A stretch of DNA of 35,694 nucleotides from an uncultured Pelagibacteraceae bacterium (GTDB lineage: Bacteria > Pseudomonadota > Alphaproteobacteria > Pelagibacterales > Pelagibacteraceae), in assembly GCA_902525355.1 (NCBI GenBank), contig CABZGO010000016.1, forward strand, positions 1-35,694, in the 5' to 3' direction. The notes beneath the pieces are model-generated. The model saw nothing but the letters and a program-made list of their open reading frames with translations. It was not told the origin of the DNA and searched no databases. Shown here piece after piece: positions 2,812 through 32,129 of this stretch (position 1 is the first letter of the stretch; each line of letters starts with the position of its first letter). A program made the translations under genes and the position numbers.

Positions 2812-3357
2812 TTATAAAGGCTGGATAACCATTATCATTTGCTTACCATCAAACTTTGGTTGTAGTTCGACACGGCCTACTGACTCCATATCTAGTTTGA
2901 TCTTATCCATTAACTCATTACCCAAACTAGAATGTTGTAGTTCTCTTCCTTTAAATCTAATTGTAAATTTTACCTTATCCCCTTTTGCAATAAATTTTTG
3001 TGCATTTTTAATTTTAAAGGTGTAATCATGTACCTCGGTAACAGGTCTTAATTTAATTTCTTTTAATTCTATCTTCTTTTGTTTTTTCTTAGCTTTATTA
3101 GCTTTTTTTTGTGCATCATATTTATATTTTCCCATATCCATAATTTTACATACAGGAGGTTTTGCATTTGGGGCTATCTCGATTAAATCTAAACCCTCTT
3201 CTTTCGCTCTATCAATCGCATCTTGTAAATTAAGTATACCTAAGTTATCGCCATCGCTTGCAATAACCTGAACATCTTGCGAAGTTATTCTTTGATTTGT
3301 TCTAGGGCCCCTAGCTTTTGTTCTTCTTTGAAAATAGTTTTGTTTAAAATCTGCCAC
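2812..3357 (-). CDS. infC: Translation initiation factor IF-3
   Basis: IF-3 binds the 30S subunit, keeps it apart from 50S and checks start-codon pairing. The protein has 181 residues with the normal two-domain layout. The N-domain includes RTNQRITSQDVQVI and LDLIEIAPNAKPPVCKIMDMGKYKY. A Lys-rich linker follows (KKANKAKKKQKKIELKEIKLRP), then the C-domain with KFTIRFKGRELQHSSLG. The start is GTG and lies directly against the thrS stop (TAA-GTG, no gap). No ATG lies upstream in frame without running into thrS, and the next Met is at residue 73, inside the fold. Non-AUG starts are common for infC (AUU in E. coli), where they allow IF-3 to control its own synthesis. Confidence 0.97.
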   Translation of the reverse strand: MADFKQNYFQRRTKARGPRTNQRITSQDVQVIASDGDNLGILNLQDAIDRAKEEGLDLIEIAPNAKPPVCKIMDMGKYKYDAQKKANKAKKKQKKIELKEIKLRPVTEVHDYTFKIKNAQKFIAKGDKVKFTIRFKGRELQHSSLGNELMDKIKLDMESVGRVELQPKFDGKQMIMVIQPL

Positions 3358-28937: not shown

Positions 28938-29263
28938 CATATTTAGTAAATGATAAATGCATCAAATGTAAATTGATGGATTGTGTAGAAGTATGTCCAG
29001 TGGATTGCTTTTACGAAGGTAAAAATATGCTTGTAATTAAACCCGATGAGTGTATAGATTGTGGCGTTTGTGAGCCAGAATGTCCTGTGGACGCTATAAT
29101 ATCCGATAACGAGGATGATAATGGTAAATGGTTAGAAATAAATAAAAAATATGCAGATTTGTGGCCAAATATTAGTAACAAAAAAGATCCACCTGCGGAT
29201 CATGAACAATTTAAAGATGTAAAAGATAAGTATGAAAAATATTTTAAAGAAAATCTTGAATAA
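28934..29263 (+). CDS. fdxA: 7Fe ferredoxin
   Basis: Small electron carrier with one 3Fe-4S and one 4Fe-4S cluster, of the Azotobacter FdI type. It has 109 residues. By alignment with that family, Cys9, Cys17 and Cys50 would hold the 3Fe cluster, and Cys21, Cys40, Cys43 and Cys46 the 4Fe cluster (CVEVCPVDC and [14 protein letters not shown]). The C-terminal extension [16 protein letters not shown] is typical of alphaproteobacterial FdxA. It overlaps the TerB-like gene by 4 bp, and the carD start lies 32 bp inside its 3' end. Confidence 0.96.
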
Positions 29264-30095
29264 TAAAAAAATAAAAACAAAAGTTCCAAAAAAAAATAAG
29301 ATTATAAAAAAAGTAGTTAAACTAAAAAAAGTTTCTAAATTAGCTAAAGTAAAAAAAGTTTCTAAAGTAGCTAAAGTAAAAAAAGTAAGAAAAGTAATTA
29401 AAGTAGTTAGAATTAATAAATTAATTAAAGATACAAAAAGAAAAGATAAAATTGAAACAAAAACTGATCCACTAAGAATTCCTAAAAACAATGAGCAAAA
29501 ACCTGAAATCAAAAAAGTAAAAAAACAAGATACTGAAAAAAGACTATTTAAGATTAAAGATTATGTTGTTTATCCAAAACATGGTGTAGGTCAAATTACA
29601 GAGTCAAAAAAAATTAATATTGGTGGTATTGATGTTGAAACATATATTCTTAAATTTGAAAAAGACAAAGCAAACGGGATGGTTCCTGTAAATAAACAAT
29701 CTCATTTAAGACCACTAGCAACAATTAATCAGATAAATAAATGTGTAAGTATTTTAAAAAGTAAACCAAAAATTAAACGATCAATGTGGAGCAGGAGAGC
29801 TCAGGAATATGAAGCTAAAATATCTTCTGGCAAAATTTATGAGTTAGCTGAAGTAGTGAGAGATCTAAATAAAGGAGATGATATTATGATTGATCAATCC
29901 TATAGTGAAAGACAATTATTTGAAAAAGCTTACGAGAGATTATTAACTGAATTCCAGATTGTAATGGGTTCAAGTTTAGAGGATGCTCAAAAAAAGCTTG
30001 ATAAAGCTTTAAAAAGAAATTTAGAAAAACAGGTTCAGAAGATTGAGGAAAAACAAGTGGCTGAAAAACCAATAAATCAGGAAGATACAGAATAA
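29232..30095 (+). CDS. carD: CarD/CdnL-family RNA polymerase-binding regulator with a Lys-rich N-terminal extension
   Basis: CarD proteins bind the RNA polymerase beta subunit and stabilise open promoter complexes, especially at rRNA promoters. The CarD domain runs from about residue 105 ([18 protein letters not shown], then [14 protein letters not shown]) to about 265, with the conserved [16 protein letters not shown] helix. Before it lies a ~100-residue, very Lys-rich, low-complexity region. This contains three nine-residue repeats of the type KKVxKxxKV at residues 32-58. ATG 29232 is the only ATG before the CarD domain, so the 32-bp overlap with fdxA and the extension appear genuine. CdnL proteins are commonly about 160-170 residues, so 287 is long. 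Confidence 0.93.
29325..29405 (+). repeat. 27-bp tandem repeat inside carD
   Basis: Three consecutive 27-bp units encode [18 protein letters not shown] and KKVRKVIKV. The first two units differ at a single base (residue 6 of the unit, Leu to Val). The third has diverged further. This suggests expansion by duplication within the coding region, in frame. Confidence 0.75.
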
Positions 30096-30132
30096 AAAAA
30101 ACGCTCCCCACGCAAGCGCCATGAGAAGCGTT
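30094..30132 (-). terminator. Intrinsic terminator of the Lys-rich mini-gene
   Basis: Read on the minus strand, AACGCTTCTC (30132-30123) pairs with GGGGAGCGTT (30109-30100) over 10 bp with two G·U pairs. Eight T residues follow (30101-30094). The G·U pairs exist only in the minus-strand RNA, where the plus strand would have C/A mismatches. The signal is therefore directed leftward and belongs to the small gene at 30155-30238, not to carD. The T-tract covers the last two bases of the carD stop codon. Confidence 0.85.
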
Positions 30133-30154
30133 ATCAGTTAAAAAGAATACTAAA

Positions 30155-30238
30155 CTATCTTCTTTTTTTCTTCTTAGCTTTTTTCTTAGCTTTTTTCTTA
30201 GTTTTCTTTTTAGCAGCTTTCTTTTTTCTTTTAGCCAT
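30155..30238 (-). CDS. Polybasic 27-residue protein
   Basis: A 27-codon gene starting MAKRKKKAAKKKTKKKAK and ending KKKKRR. It has 17 Lys, 3 Arg, 5 Ala, 1 Thr and the starting Met, with AKKK/TKKK-like four-residue periodicity. The evidence that it is a real gene is its complete set of signals. GGGAG lies 6 nt before the ATG. A near-consensus promoter (30290-30318) and a stem-loop at the expected 5' end of the RNA are upstream, and a strong terminator lies 22 bp after the stop. I do not recognise a named family. The composition resembles histone H1-like C-terminal tails, so nucleic-acid binding is the natural guess. It converges on carD, which has a Lys-rich tail of its own. Confidence 0.82.
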   Translation of the reverse strand: MAKRKKKAAKKKTKKKAKKKAKKKKRR

Positions 30239-30259
30239 CTTTAGCTCCCTTTTTTTTTA

Positions 30260-30280
30260 AACGAATCTTTATGATTCGTT
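30260..30280 (-). promoter_or_regulatory. 5' stem-loop of the polybasic mini-gene mRNA
   Basis: AACGAATC and GATTCGTT form a perfect 8-bp stem with a 5-nt loop. With the promoter just upstream, transcription would begin within a few bases of this stem, putting it at the extreme 5' end of the mRNA. 5'-terminal stem-loops of this sort slow RNA decay (as in E. coli ompA). An A-rich stretch and the GGGAG ribosome site follow. It could instead be a weak terminator of the acyl-CoA synthetase transcript, but no U-tract of useful length follows. Confidence 0.6.
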
Positions 30281-30289
30281 AATTACTAA

Positions 30290-30318
30290 TTTTTATTTTT
30301 TTTGAATAGCTATGTCAA
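30290..30318 (-). promoter_or_regulatory. Sigma-70-type promoter for the polybasic mini-gene
   Basis: Minus strand. A perfect -35 hexamer TTGACA (30318-30313), a 17-bp spacer and a -10 hexamer TAAAAA (30295-30290, 4 of 6 consensus bases). Transcription should start near 30283, giving an RNA of about 190 nt down to the terminator at 30094. This is the best promoter match I found in the window. Confidence 0.7.
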
Positions 30319-30428: not shown

Positions 30429-32129
30429 TTAATAAAGTTTTTCAAATTCATTTTTATATTTCTTAACAATTTTATACCTTTTTAGTTTTAAAGTTGGAGT
30501 TAGCATTCCATTCTCGATTGAAAATTTTTCATTAATTATAAAAAATTTTTTTATATTTTCTATTCTTGAAAGATTTTTATTAATATTTTCTATTTCTTTT
30601 TGTATTTGATCATTACTTGTACCAATATTATCCTCCGACAGAACTAATAAAGCAACTAAATATGGTTTATTATCTCCATAAACAACTGATTGATCAATAA
30701 GTTTCGAATTTGATAATTCATTTTCTATTTTAACTGGAGATATATTGTCTCCACCTGGTGTTATTAAAATATCTTTTTTTCTATCAGTAATTTTTAGATA
30801 ACTGTTCTCAAAAATTCCAATATCTCCTGTATGCAACCAACCATCCTTTAAAACTTTTTTGGTTTCTTCATCATTATTCCAATAACCCAACATTACATTC
30901 TCACCCTTAACTAAAATTTCTCCATCTGAGGCTATTTTTACCTCATTACCTTTAAATGGTGGTCCCACAGTCTCAACCCTAATATCGTTAATTGGGTTAC
31001 AACTTACAACTGGAGAGGTCTCGGTTAATCCATAACCCTGTAAGGTTGGTAAGCCTATTGCATTTAAAAAAATACCAACTTCTTTATCAAGCGCTCCGCC
31101 ACCTGAAACAAATGTTTTAAGCTCACCGCCAAATTGACTTTTGATTTTTTTTCTCACAATCTTTTCTAAAATACTATCAATCATTTTTTCTAAAATTGTT
31201 AAAGATTGTTTATTAATTTTTTTAGTTCCTAGTTCTAACATTTTAAATATTAAACTTTTCTTTAAACCTGTTGCTTTATTGAAACTTGCATTGATTTTTT
31301 GAAAAAGATTTTGGTAAAACCTTGGTACTGCAGTCATTATTTGGGGTTTACAATCATTCATATTTTTAATTAATTTTTCAATACTCTCTGCATAGAATAT
31401 TTTTGCTCCAACACTTATTTGAACAAATTGAACGGTGTGTTCGTAAGAATGTGATAGGGGTAACCAAGTTAAAAACCTGGTCTGATCTGATAACAAAGGT
31501 TTTAATATATCAAGCGCACCATCACAATTATTTAAAATACCACCATGACTTAAAATTACACCTTTTGGGTTACCTTGGGTTCCTGAGGTATAAATAATAC
31601 AAGCAGGATCATTTCTTTTAATTGATAAGTCTGGAACGTTTAAATCTTGATAGTCTAAATTAGAAAATAATTTATTAACATTTATATAAGAATCCGTATC
31701 TGCATCTAATTCTTCAAAAGAAAATATTTTATTAATAAAACTCTTTTTTTTTATAATTTCTTTTACTTTGCTATATTGTTCTTGATTAGAAACAAAGATT
31801 AATTTTGGATTACAATTTTCAATAATATATTCGTAATCTTTCTCAGCATAAGTTGTATATGCTGGAACAGTTATTACTTCGGATAACATTACTGAAAGGT
31901 CAGTTATTAACCATTCAGGTCTATTTTCAGATATTAATAAACATCTATCACCTTTATTTGTATATTTTTTAATTTCTGAAGAAAGTTTTTTAATTGAATG
32001 GAATGTTTTTTCCCACGTAAAATAATTATTGTTATCTTTCAAAGATGTTAAAAGAATATTATTTTTTTTTTGTTTTTTATAATTAATAAAAAAGAGATCG
32101 ACTAAATTATTTATATTTTGTGTACTCAT
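30429..32129 (-). CDS. Long-chain fatty acyl-CoA synthetase (AMP-forming)
   Basis: ANL-superfamily ligase of the FadD/FAA type. It activates a fatty acid to acyl-AMP and then acyl-CoA for degradation or lipid synthesis. It has 566 residues. The P-loop is ACIIYTSGTQGNPKGVILSHGG. LPLSHSYEHTVQF and GYGLTETSPVVSCNP follow, then DGWLHTGDIGIFENSYLKITDRKKDILITPGGDNISP. The C-terminal domain ends with TPTLKLKRYKIVKKY, which holds the position of the catalytic Lys. No membrane span is obvious. Its ATG is only 7 nt after the encoded CCA of tRNA-Leu on the same strand, so it probably shares the tRNA transcript. Confidence 0.92.
   Translation of the reverse strand: MSTQNINNLVDLFFINYKKQKKNNILLTSLKDNNNYFTWEKTFHSIKKLSSEIKKYTNKGDRCLLISENRPEWLITDLSVMLSEVITVPAYTTYAEKDYEYIIENCNPKLIFVSNQEQYSKVKEIIKKKSFINKIFSFEELDADTDSYINVNKLFSNLDYQDLNVPDLSIKRNDPACIIYTSGTQGNPKGVILSHGGILNNCDGALDILKPLLSDQTRFLTWLPLSHSYEHTVQFVQISVGAKIFYAESIEKLIKNMNDCKPQIMTAVPRFYQNLFQKINASFNKATGLKKSLIFKMLELGTKKINKQSLTILEKMIDSILEKIVRKKIKSQFGGELKTFVSGGGALDKEVGIFLNAIGLPTLQGYGLTETSPVVSCNPINDIRVETVGPPFKGNEVKIASDGEILVKGENVMLGYWNNDEETKKVLKDGWLHTGDIGIFENSYLKITDRKKDILITPGGDNISPVKIENELSNSKLIDQSVVYGDNKPYLVALLVLSEDNIGTSNDQIQKEIENINKNLSRIENIKKFFIINEKFSIENGMLTPTLKLKRYKIVKKYKNEFEKLY

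Follow-up and report, generated by a model that had tools for sequence, protein, structure and literature searches.

SAR11 bacteria (order Pelagibacterales) are the most abundant bacteria of the ocean. In a contig of an uncultured Pelagibacteraceae bacterium (35,694 nt, analysed at full length and referred to as the window), a short minus-strand reading frame composed largely of lysine and arginine codons lies opposite the end of carD. Is this mini-gene a protein gene, to what kind of protein might its product belong, and what sets its expression? The features of the locus are as follows.

30318-30094, minus strand: whole unit, with promoter, 5' hairpin, Shine-Dalgarno (SD) sequence, 27-codon Lys/Arg open reading frame (ORF) and terminator; convergent with carD
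30289..30318, minus strand: promoter TTGACA with AT-rich -10 (TAAAAA/AAAAAT); kept across genus loci
30260..30280, minus strand: hairpin AACGAATCATAAAGATTCGTT of the 5' leader, which contains CGAATC(A), a motif found across the order, at 30272-30278; from fold and conservation
30232..30249, minus strand: start region GGGAGCTAAAGATGGCTA; 18 nt complementary to the loop of an RF01814 rhtB RNA elsewhere in the genome
30155..30238, minus strand: polybasic, H1-tail-like ORF of 27 codons; intact in 79 of 81 genus loci
30094..30132, minus strand: intrinsic terminator, 13-pair stem and run of eight T; terminator-like in 79 of 79 genus loci
29232..30095, plus strand: carD (CdnL/CarD; PF21095, PF02559), with Lys-rich N-terminal extension; convergent neighbour
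30429..32129, minus strand: AMP-binding acyl-CoA ligase-like gene (profile match), upstream neighbour of the mini-gene, also in the other genera read

Translation of 30238-30155 (minus strand) gives MAKRKKKAAKKKTKKKAKKKAKKKKRR, a protein of 27 amino acids with Lys or Arg at 20 positions. TTGACA starts at 30318; spacers of 17 nt and 18 nt yield only TAAAAA and AAAAAT, respectively, so the -10 element is weak. The hairpin, with arms AACGAATC and GATTCGTT around a loop, has a folding energy of -8.1 kcal/mol (z -3.3; 1 of 200 shuffles equally stable), and its pattern occurs at a single site in the genome. GGGAG, CTAAAG and ATG follow in that order. Two of the eight T of the terminator lie inside the stem, and the run shares bases with the carD stop codon. 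All elements named in an earlier note (TTGACA with a 17-bp spacer, stem-loop, GGGAG, 27-residue ORF with 20 Lys/Arg and eight-T terminator) were thus found again in the sequence.

The ORF and the terminator stood out from their surroundings. Among 194 ATG-initiated ORFs of at least 20 amino acids in the window, the mini-gene alone reached at least 50% Lys plus Arg, and 60 windows simulated with a Markov-1 model contained zero ORFs at 60% or above. The terminator had the highest pair count of 6 terminator-like sites in 10.7 kb (shuffled sequences: mean 2.8 sites). Promoter-like matches as a class were no commoner than in shuffled sequences (64 found, shuffle mean 67.2), so the claim of a promoter rests on its conservation. 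A Lys-rich stretch at 3069-3108 (minus strand) weakly matches the mini-gene; by eye, it may fall inside the gene for initiation factor 3.

We then compared the locus within the genus of the window (g1), here called Pelagibacter. A whole-genome DNA search returned some match in all 101 genus genomes, the window's own included; the match was only short or of low complexity in 20 and extended to the unit in 81. According to the earlier note, close relatives lacking the start codon, the SD or the frame would count against the gene. At the 81 loci, the Lys/Arg ORF was intact in 79, one (L072) was frame-broken at 16 codons and one (L024) was cut by a contig end. SD and ATG were readable in 79 loci (L072 included; L023 and L024 cut), with the SD region GGGAGCTAAAG in 74, GGGAGCTAAAA in 4 (L018, for example) and GGGAGTTAAAG in 1 (L062); in other genera, GGGAGATAAAG or GGGAGAAAAG was found. 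Among 78 intact full reads, the ORF was 21-32 codons long, and both a start cap, M[AP][KT][KR]3, and an end cap, [KR]4+, were kept in all. Additional genus loci showed the ORF in 23 of 23, 21 of them from new genomes. All 77 loci whose upstream sequence is complete have TTGACA, and the 5' hairpin was found in 78 of 79, the sole exception being cut. Because conservation begins at TTGACA and stops at the terminator, the unit is self-contained, as had been proposed.

Codon phase provided a further line of evidence. In 51 distinct coding sequences, GAA and GAG made up 0 of 1388 in-frame codons versus 236 and 194 of 1337 in the two alternative frames. The absence of these codons from the true frame alone is not what would be expected of an incidental purine-rich RNA. 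By codon phase and conservation, the mini-gene is a real protein gene.

The position beside carD was fixed, and the gene was present in 30 of 30 order loci fetched via carD, which answers the earlier call for a synteny comparison. We also searched for carD in 39 family genomes picked for having no clear match to the unit (all 20 of the genus and 19 others). In 35 of them the assembly lacked carD too, and several of these assemblies had completeness ratings above 90%. The other 4 had carD: two loci (L206 and L207) carried the mini-gene and two (L204 and L205) ended at contig edges. Among the loci read, none had carD and sufficient flank without the mini-gene.

Outside Pelagibacter, the ORF was present, at 20-58 amino acids, in 37 of 38 loci from ten further genera of this family (g2-g9, g12 and g13); these reads cover the family outside g10, g11 and g14, and weak family-wide matches were followed in part. 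The exception, L115 (g6), kept promoter, leader and start and was frame-broken. L108, also among the 38, resembles the genus form, and its assembly carries a contamination rating of 6%. The frame breaks of L072 and L115 fall in A-rich stretches, where sequencing error and real loss are indistinguishable. In the sister family, all 10 uncut loci carry a protein of 60-91 amino acids, e.g. MEELKVIFAKARKKAKKKAAPKKKRKAAKRKPAKKK..., beside carD at the same site, with KKAAPKKK-type repeats as in histone H1 tails. TTGAC, CGAATCA and a G-rich SD were found in 10 of 10 of these loci, and a T tract 3' of the gene in 9 of 10 (by pattern match). The form of g12 is intermediate, with 34-58 amino acids containing Ala, Pro and Lys. 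Elsewhere in the class, we read 28 loci, some of which have truncated flanks, and found no comparable ORF beside carD, only a few short chance ORFs. The mini-gene occurs in both sampled families of the order. A class-wide protein search of 115 genomes with an 85-residue relative as query gave no match, even in two SAR11 carriers of the gene, and is uninformative on its spread. In viral contigs, a single pattern match was judged unrelated from the sequence after it.

In a CarD tree, the two SAR11 families grouped together (99/95). The 20-35-residue forms, which are those of Pelagibacter and six related genera, made up one clade (90/97), and longer forms (29-58 residues; one g5 copy of 20) lay at the unresolved base of the family. 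The simplest reading is that the protein shrank in this lineage; the direction is unproven because there is no outgroup copy.

What kind of protein would the mini-gene encode? Distinct intact coding sequences of the genus specify 55.9% Lys, 21.5% Arg, 18.7% Ala, 2.4% Thr and 1.4% Pro, with Asp and Glu absent; across the window's family the protein consists almost only of K, R, A, T, P, G, S and V and has no aromatic residues. Two features of H1-like proteins are evident: a Lys/Ala-rich, low-complexity composition almost devoid of acidic residues (in the genus sequences), and a length that varies by in-frame repeat number, from 20 to 91 amino acids across the order. Pro-containing AAPKK-type repeats occur in the 10 sister-family proteins and 5 of g12 and are absent from the window's own protein. 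Pfam, NCBIfam and PHROGs gave no match over cut-off and PDB no useful relative, low-complexity queries being poorly served by such searches; the sole sub-threshold family match (E 8.5, with the 85-residue relative) was taken as chance. Models of the histones Hc1 and HC2 exist in Pfam. Since no family model matches, we assign the mini-protein to no named family, whether Hc1, Hc2 or ribosomal. An Rfam search with the unit returned nothing useful. No description of the gene was found among the titles and abstracts listed from open-licence literature, nor in the available portions of PMC5069720 and PMC2704228.

The best reading of the product is a shrunken H1-like, nucleic-acid-binding polycation, predicted to be disordered. 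The earlier note had suggested, from charge, a function in binding nucleic acid or ribosomes; this may now be narrowed towards a nucleoid-type H1-like polycation. Lys/Ala(/Pro)-rich repeats of this kind are found in chlamydial Hc1/HctA and Hc2/HctB, in Bordetella BpH1 and in the C-terminal tail of Pseudomonas AlgP. For AlgP, the part of the report available portrays a disordered, H1-like tail of which fragments bind DNA (PMC9239181). Hc2 varies in length by in-frame repeats, according to the accessible part of its description (PMC2848022), and the mini-protein family likewise changes length by repeat number with the frame kept. Unlike bacterial H1-like proteins, the genus form has only 21-35 residues, lacks a folded N-terminal domain, contains little Pro and has Arg-rich end caps; it is also without an HMM match, and its DNA binding is putative. 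To our knowledge, a mini H1-like protein of this size would be among the smallest histone-like proteins known. It would exemplify a histone-like protein reduced almost to its charged tail, and a gene of 20-35 codons so widespread would be a missing part. Genes of this length are short enough for the usual gene callers to miss.

The leader of the mini-gene contains a nearly invariant motif. CGAATC was present in 78 of 78 genus leaders long enough to include it, followed by A in 77 and by G in one, and CGAATCA in 47 of 47 other ORF-bearing loci, even where a shifted stem leaves most of the 7-mer unpaired. In the window, the 7-mer (30272-30278, minus strand) sits near the likely 5' end. As an alternative, the hairpin might be a DNA palindrome serving as an operator, as would fit the left half of the motif being kept as sequence and the breaking of a pair in 3 of 78 loci. 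Of 78 genus loci, 22 have G instead of A in one arm, and 20 of these keep a G-U pair; the second arm of other genera reads GATTTGT, again with G-U retained. Because such changes keep pairing in RNA and break the palindrome, this reading is less likely.

Searching 11 genomes with TTGACN{28,42}CGAATCA gave 11 matches: the mini-gene in 10 of 11 genomes (that of G012, with CGAATCG, was missed) and one extra match in G244, located 25 nt before an HU match. The pattern alone was no rarer than its reversed control (11 versus 15 matches in the 11 genomes), so we read the leaders of 50 PF00216 genes, looking for ACGA(A/T)TC within 75 nt of the start. The motif preceded 13 of 13 HU-type genes outside Pelagibacter. 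Eleven had strict ACGAATC (nine of the sister family, G140 and G105) and two the variant ACGATTC (G109 and G122); the nine sister-family cases being related, about three independent lineages are represented. ACGA(A/T)TC was found in 0 of 7 HU-type leaders read in Pelagibacter and in 0 of 30 other PF00216 paralogues, the start being uncertain in some of the latter (L354, L356, L357 and L378-L380). In 22 of 23 loci of the sister family, g7, g9 and g12, the start of the mini-gene is preceded by CTCC/CCTC/CTCT, which might mask the SD; in Pelagibacter, CTCC/CCTC was found before the start in 0 of 79. Scarcity of HU was considered as a reason for the gene and rejected, 20 of 21 SAR11 genomes examined having 2-3 PF00216 matches.

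HU itself is folded, bends DNA and has about 90 residues. The mini-protein resembles it in a likely nucleoid role and in a common leader motif or start-region sequence; unlike these, its protein sequence has no relation to that of HU.

In Pelagibacter, the start region points to a different connection. Employing the pattern GGAGCTAAAN{0,1}ATG in 7 genomes, we obtained 24 matches (reversed control: 2), namely 7 at the mini-gene, 7 on the strand opposite an rhtB RNA, 5 at HU (ACCGGAGCTAAAATG) and 5 others. The start region of HU has GGAGCUAAA / GGAGCTAAA in common with that of the mini-gene. cmscan identified the rhtB RNA (RF01814) in 7 of 7 genus genomes, at 73-90 bits with a gathering cut-off of 55, and the hairpin of the motif was seen in all seven. 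Five genomes have the loop sequence UUAGCCAUCUUUAGCUCCCGG, the other two CUAGCCAUC.... Because the SD-ATG pattern recurs on the strand opposite rhtB, the loop is antisense to the SD and start codon of the mini-gene. In the genome of the window and two others, the complementarity runs to 18 nt. In the four genomes with a Pro second codon it covers 14 nt and then meets a mismatch; the loop does not follow the codon change.

Duplex energies were calculated first for the whole RNA, where the mini-gene exceeded all background in only 3 of 7 genomes, and afterwards for the 26-nt loop region, with 1194 ATG windows, all taken from this window, as background. The loop region paired with the mini-gene at -28.8 to -37.1 kcal/mol and beat all 1194 background windows in 7 of 7 genomes, by a narrow margin in the four Pro-codon genomes (-28.8 to -30.2 versus -27.7 for the best background). 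With HU, it gave -20.9 to -22.2 in 5 genomes, matched or beaten by 5-16 of the 1194. The plus strand of the window itself scored 23.5 against RF01814, below threshold; it resembles the loop in sequence without being an rhtB RNA, and the weak match fits the complementarity of loop and start region. The SD strand of the rhtB hairpin could encode only 3-24 amino acids of unsteady sequence and is therefore unlikely to be a gene.

By eye, the rhtB hairpin appears just before a LysE/RhtB-type exporter gene (closest in L404) and, on the other strand, precedes a small conserved gene and a glutaredoxin-like gene (read from L392, L395, L396, L404, L407, L408 and L411). In L408 the exporter-side context differs and the hairpin stays.

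These matches suggest antisense control of the mini-gene by the rhtB RNA, like that of IhtA on chlamydial HctA. In Chlamydia, the loop of the small RNA IhtA is complementary to the AUG region of the H1-like hctA mRNA, as given in the available part of PMC4355289. The rhtB loop is likewise complementary to the AUG region of an H1-like gene. Unlike the IhtA pairing, of about 7 nt in that source, the rhtB run is 14-18 nt; the two RNAs are unrelated, HU is a possible second target of rhtB, and the rhtB pairing is predicted from sequence. The rhtB motif was reported as a hairpin with a conserved loop and about 1250 representatives, listed on the rhtB strand (Meyer et al. 2009, PMC2704228), and the accessible portion of that paper proposes no target for it. 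The match of the conserved loop to the start region of the mini-gene, and partly to that of HU, provides this motif of 2009 with a target that can be tested. Both links, to HU and to rhtB, were recognised post hoc.

The frame, composition, end caps, leader motif, promoter, terminator and position by carD are all conserved. We think it probable that the mini-gene encodes a disordered, almost purely cationic H1-tail-like protein that binds nucleic acid and whose expression is set with that of HU. Such a protein would bind DNA, and probably RNA, through its charge and may help to compact or coat the nucleoid together with HU. The ACGAATC leader motif suggests that, in the sister family and some genera, its expression would be set jointly with HU; in Pelagibacter, the rhtB loop may pair with the SD and start codon of the mini-gene, and partly with those of HU, and block translation. 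More tentatively, these could be parts of a SAR11 nucleoid-protein regulon, in which the mini H1-like protein and HU are co-set via ACGAATC or, in Pelagibacter, via an rhtB RNA occluding both start codons, a logic that Chlamydia would have reached independently with IhtA and HctA. Independent expression, as suggested in the earlier note, would fit a unit with conserved signals of its own and is qualified by the leader elements common to HU and by the start region mirrored in the rhtB RNA.

Other functions of the product were weighed against this one. If the product were bound to the ribosome like eL41 or bTHX, as a short basic protein that neutralises rRNA, this would agree with the size, the charge, the complete unit and the wide presence in the order. 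A length of 20 to 91 residues set by repeat number and, in the window's family, a composition nearly confined to eight residue types, none of them aromatic, argue against it, as do the lack of any Pfam match for the mini-protein to ribosomal mini-proteins (eL41, bTHX, mS38/COX24) at E up to 10 and a leader motif common to HU, as seen in a comparison of PF00216 leaders; we regard this alternative as unlikely. It is quite unlikely that the protein is a polyanion chaperone that organises RNA or polyphosphate rather than the chromosome: charge alone cannot separate DNA from RNA or polyphosphate, but the leader elements common to HU point to DNA. The model for such a role would be AlgP, whose tail is H1-like and which is located on polyphosphate granules, as stated in the available part of PMC9239181.

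A third alternative, which we consider very unlikely, is that the product works together with CarD, serving at RNA polymerase promoters as a separate basic tail, much as the HMGA-like domain does in myxobacterial CarD. The mini-gene is convergent with carD in every order locus read, SAR11 CarD itself bears a Lys-rich extension, and the title of a 2009 PNAS article is said to state that H1-like and HMGA-like domains are functionally equivalent in a CarD-type factor. However, the two genes have separate signals as well as opposite directions, carD lacks such a gene beside it at the 28 loci elsewhere in the class (some with cut flanks), and gene order in SAR11 is generally conserved. A structured non-coding RNA with an incidental ORF, or a leader peptide, would account for the conserved hairpin, terminator and leader 7-mer but is highly improbable, the former being contradicted by codon phase and in-frame length changes and the latter by the absence of any same-strand gene before the terminator, with carD lying antisense after it.

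Preferring the H1-tail-like protein, we note separately that the Lys-rich N-terminal extension of SAR11 CarD (window 29232-29489, plus strand; loci L146-L175) comprises 44-105 amino acids up to the first in-frame ATG, with 33-48% Lys/Arg, in 29 of 30 loci, none being obtained for L170. Similar CarD extensions were seen in some other alphaproteobacteria (L181, L184, L188, L192, L193, L194 and L200).
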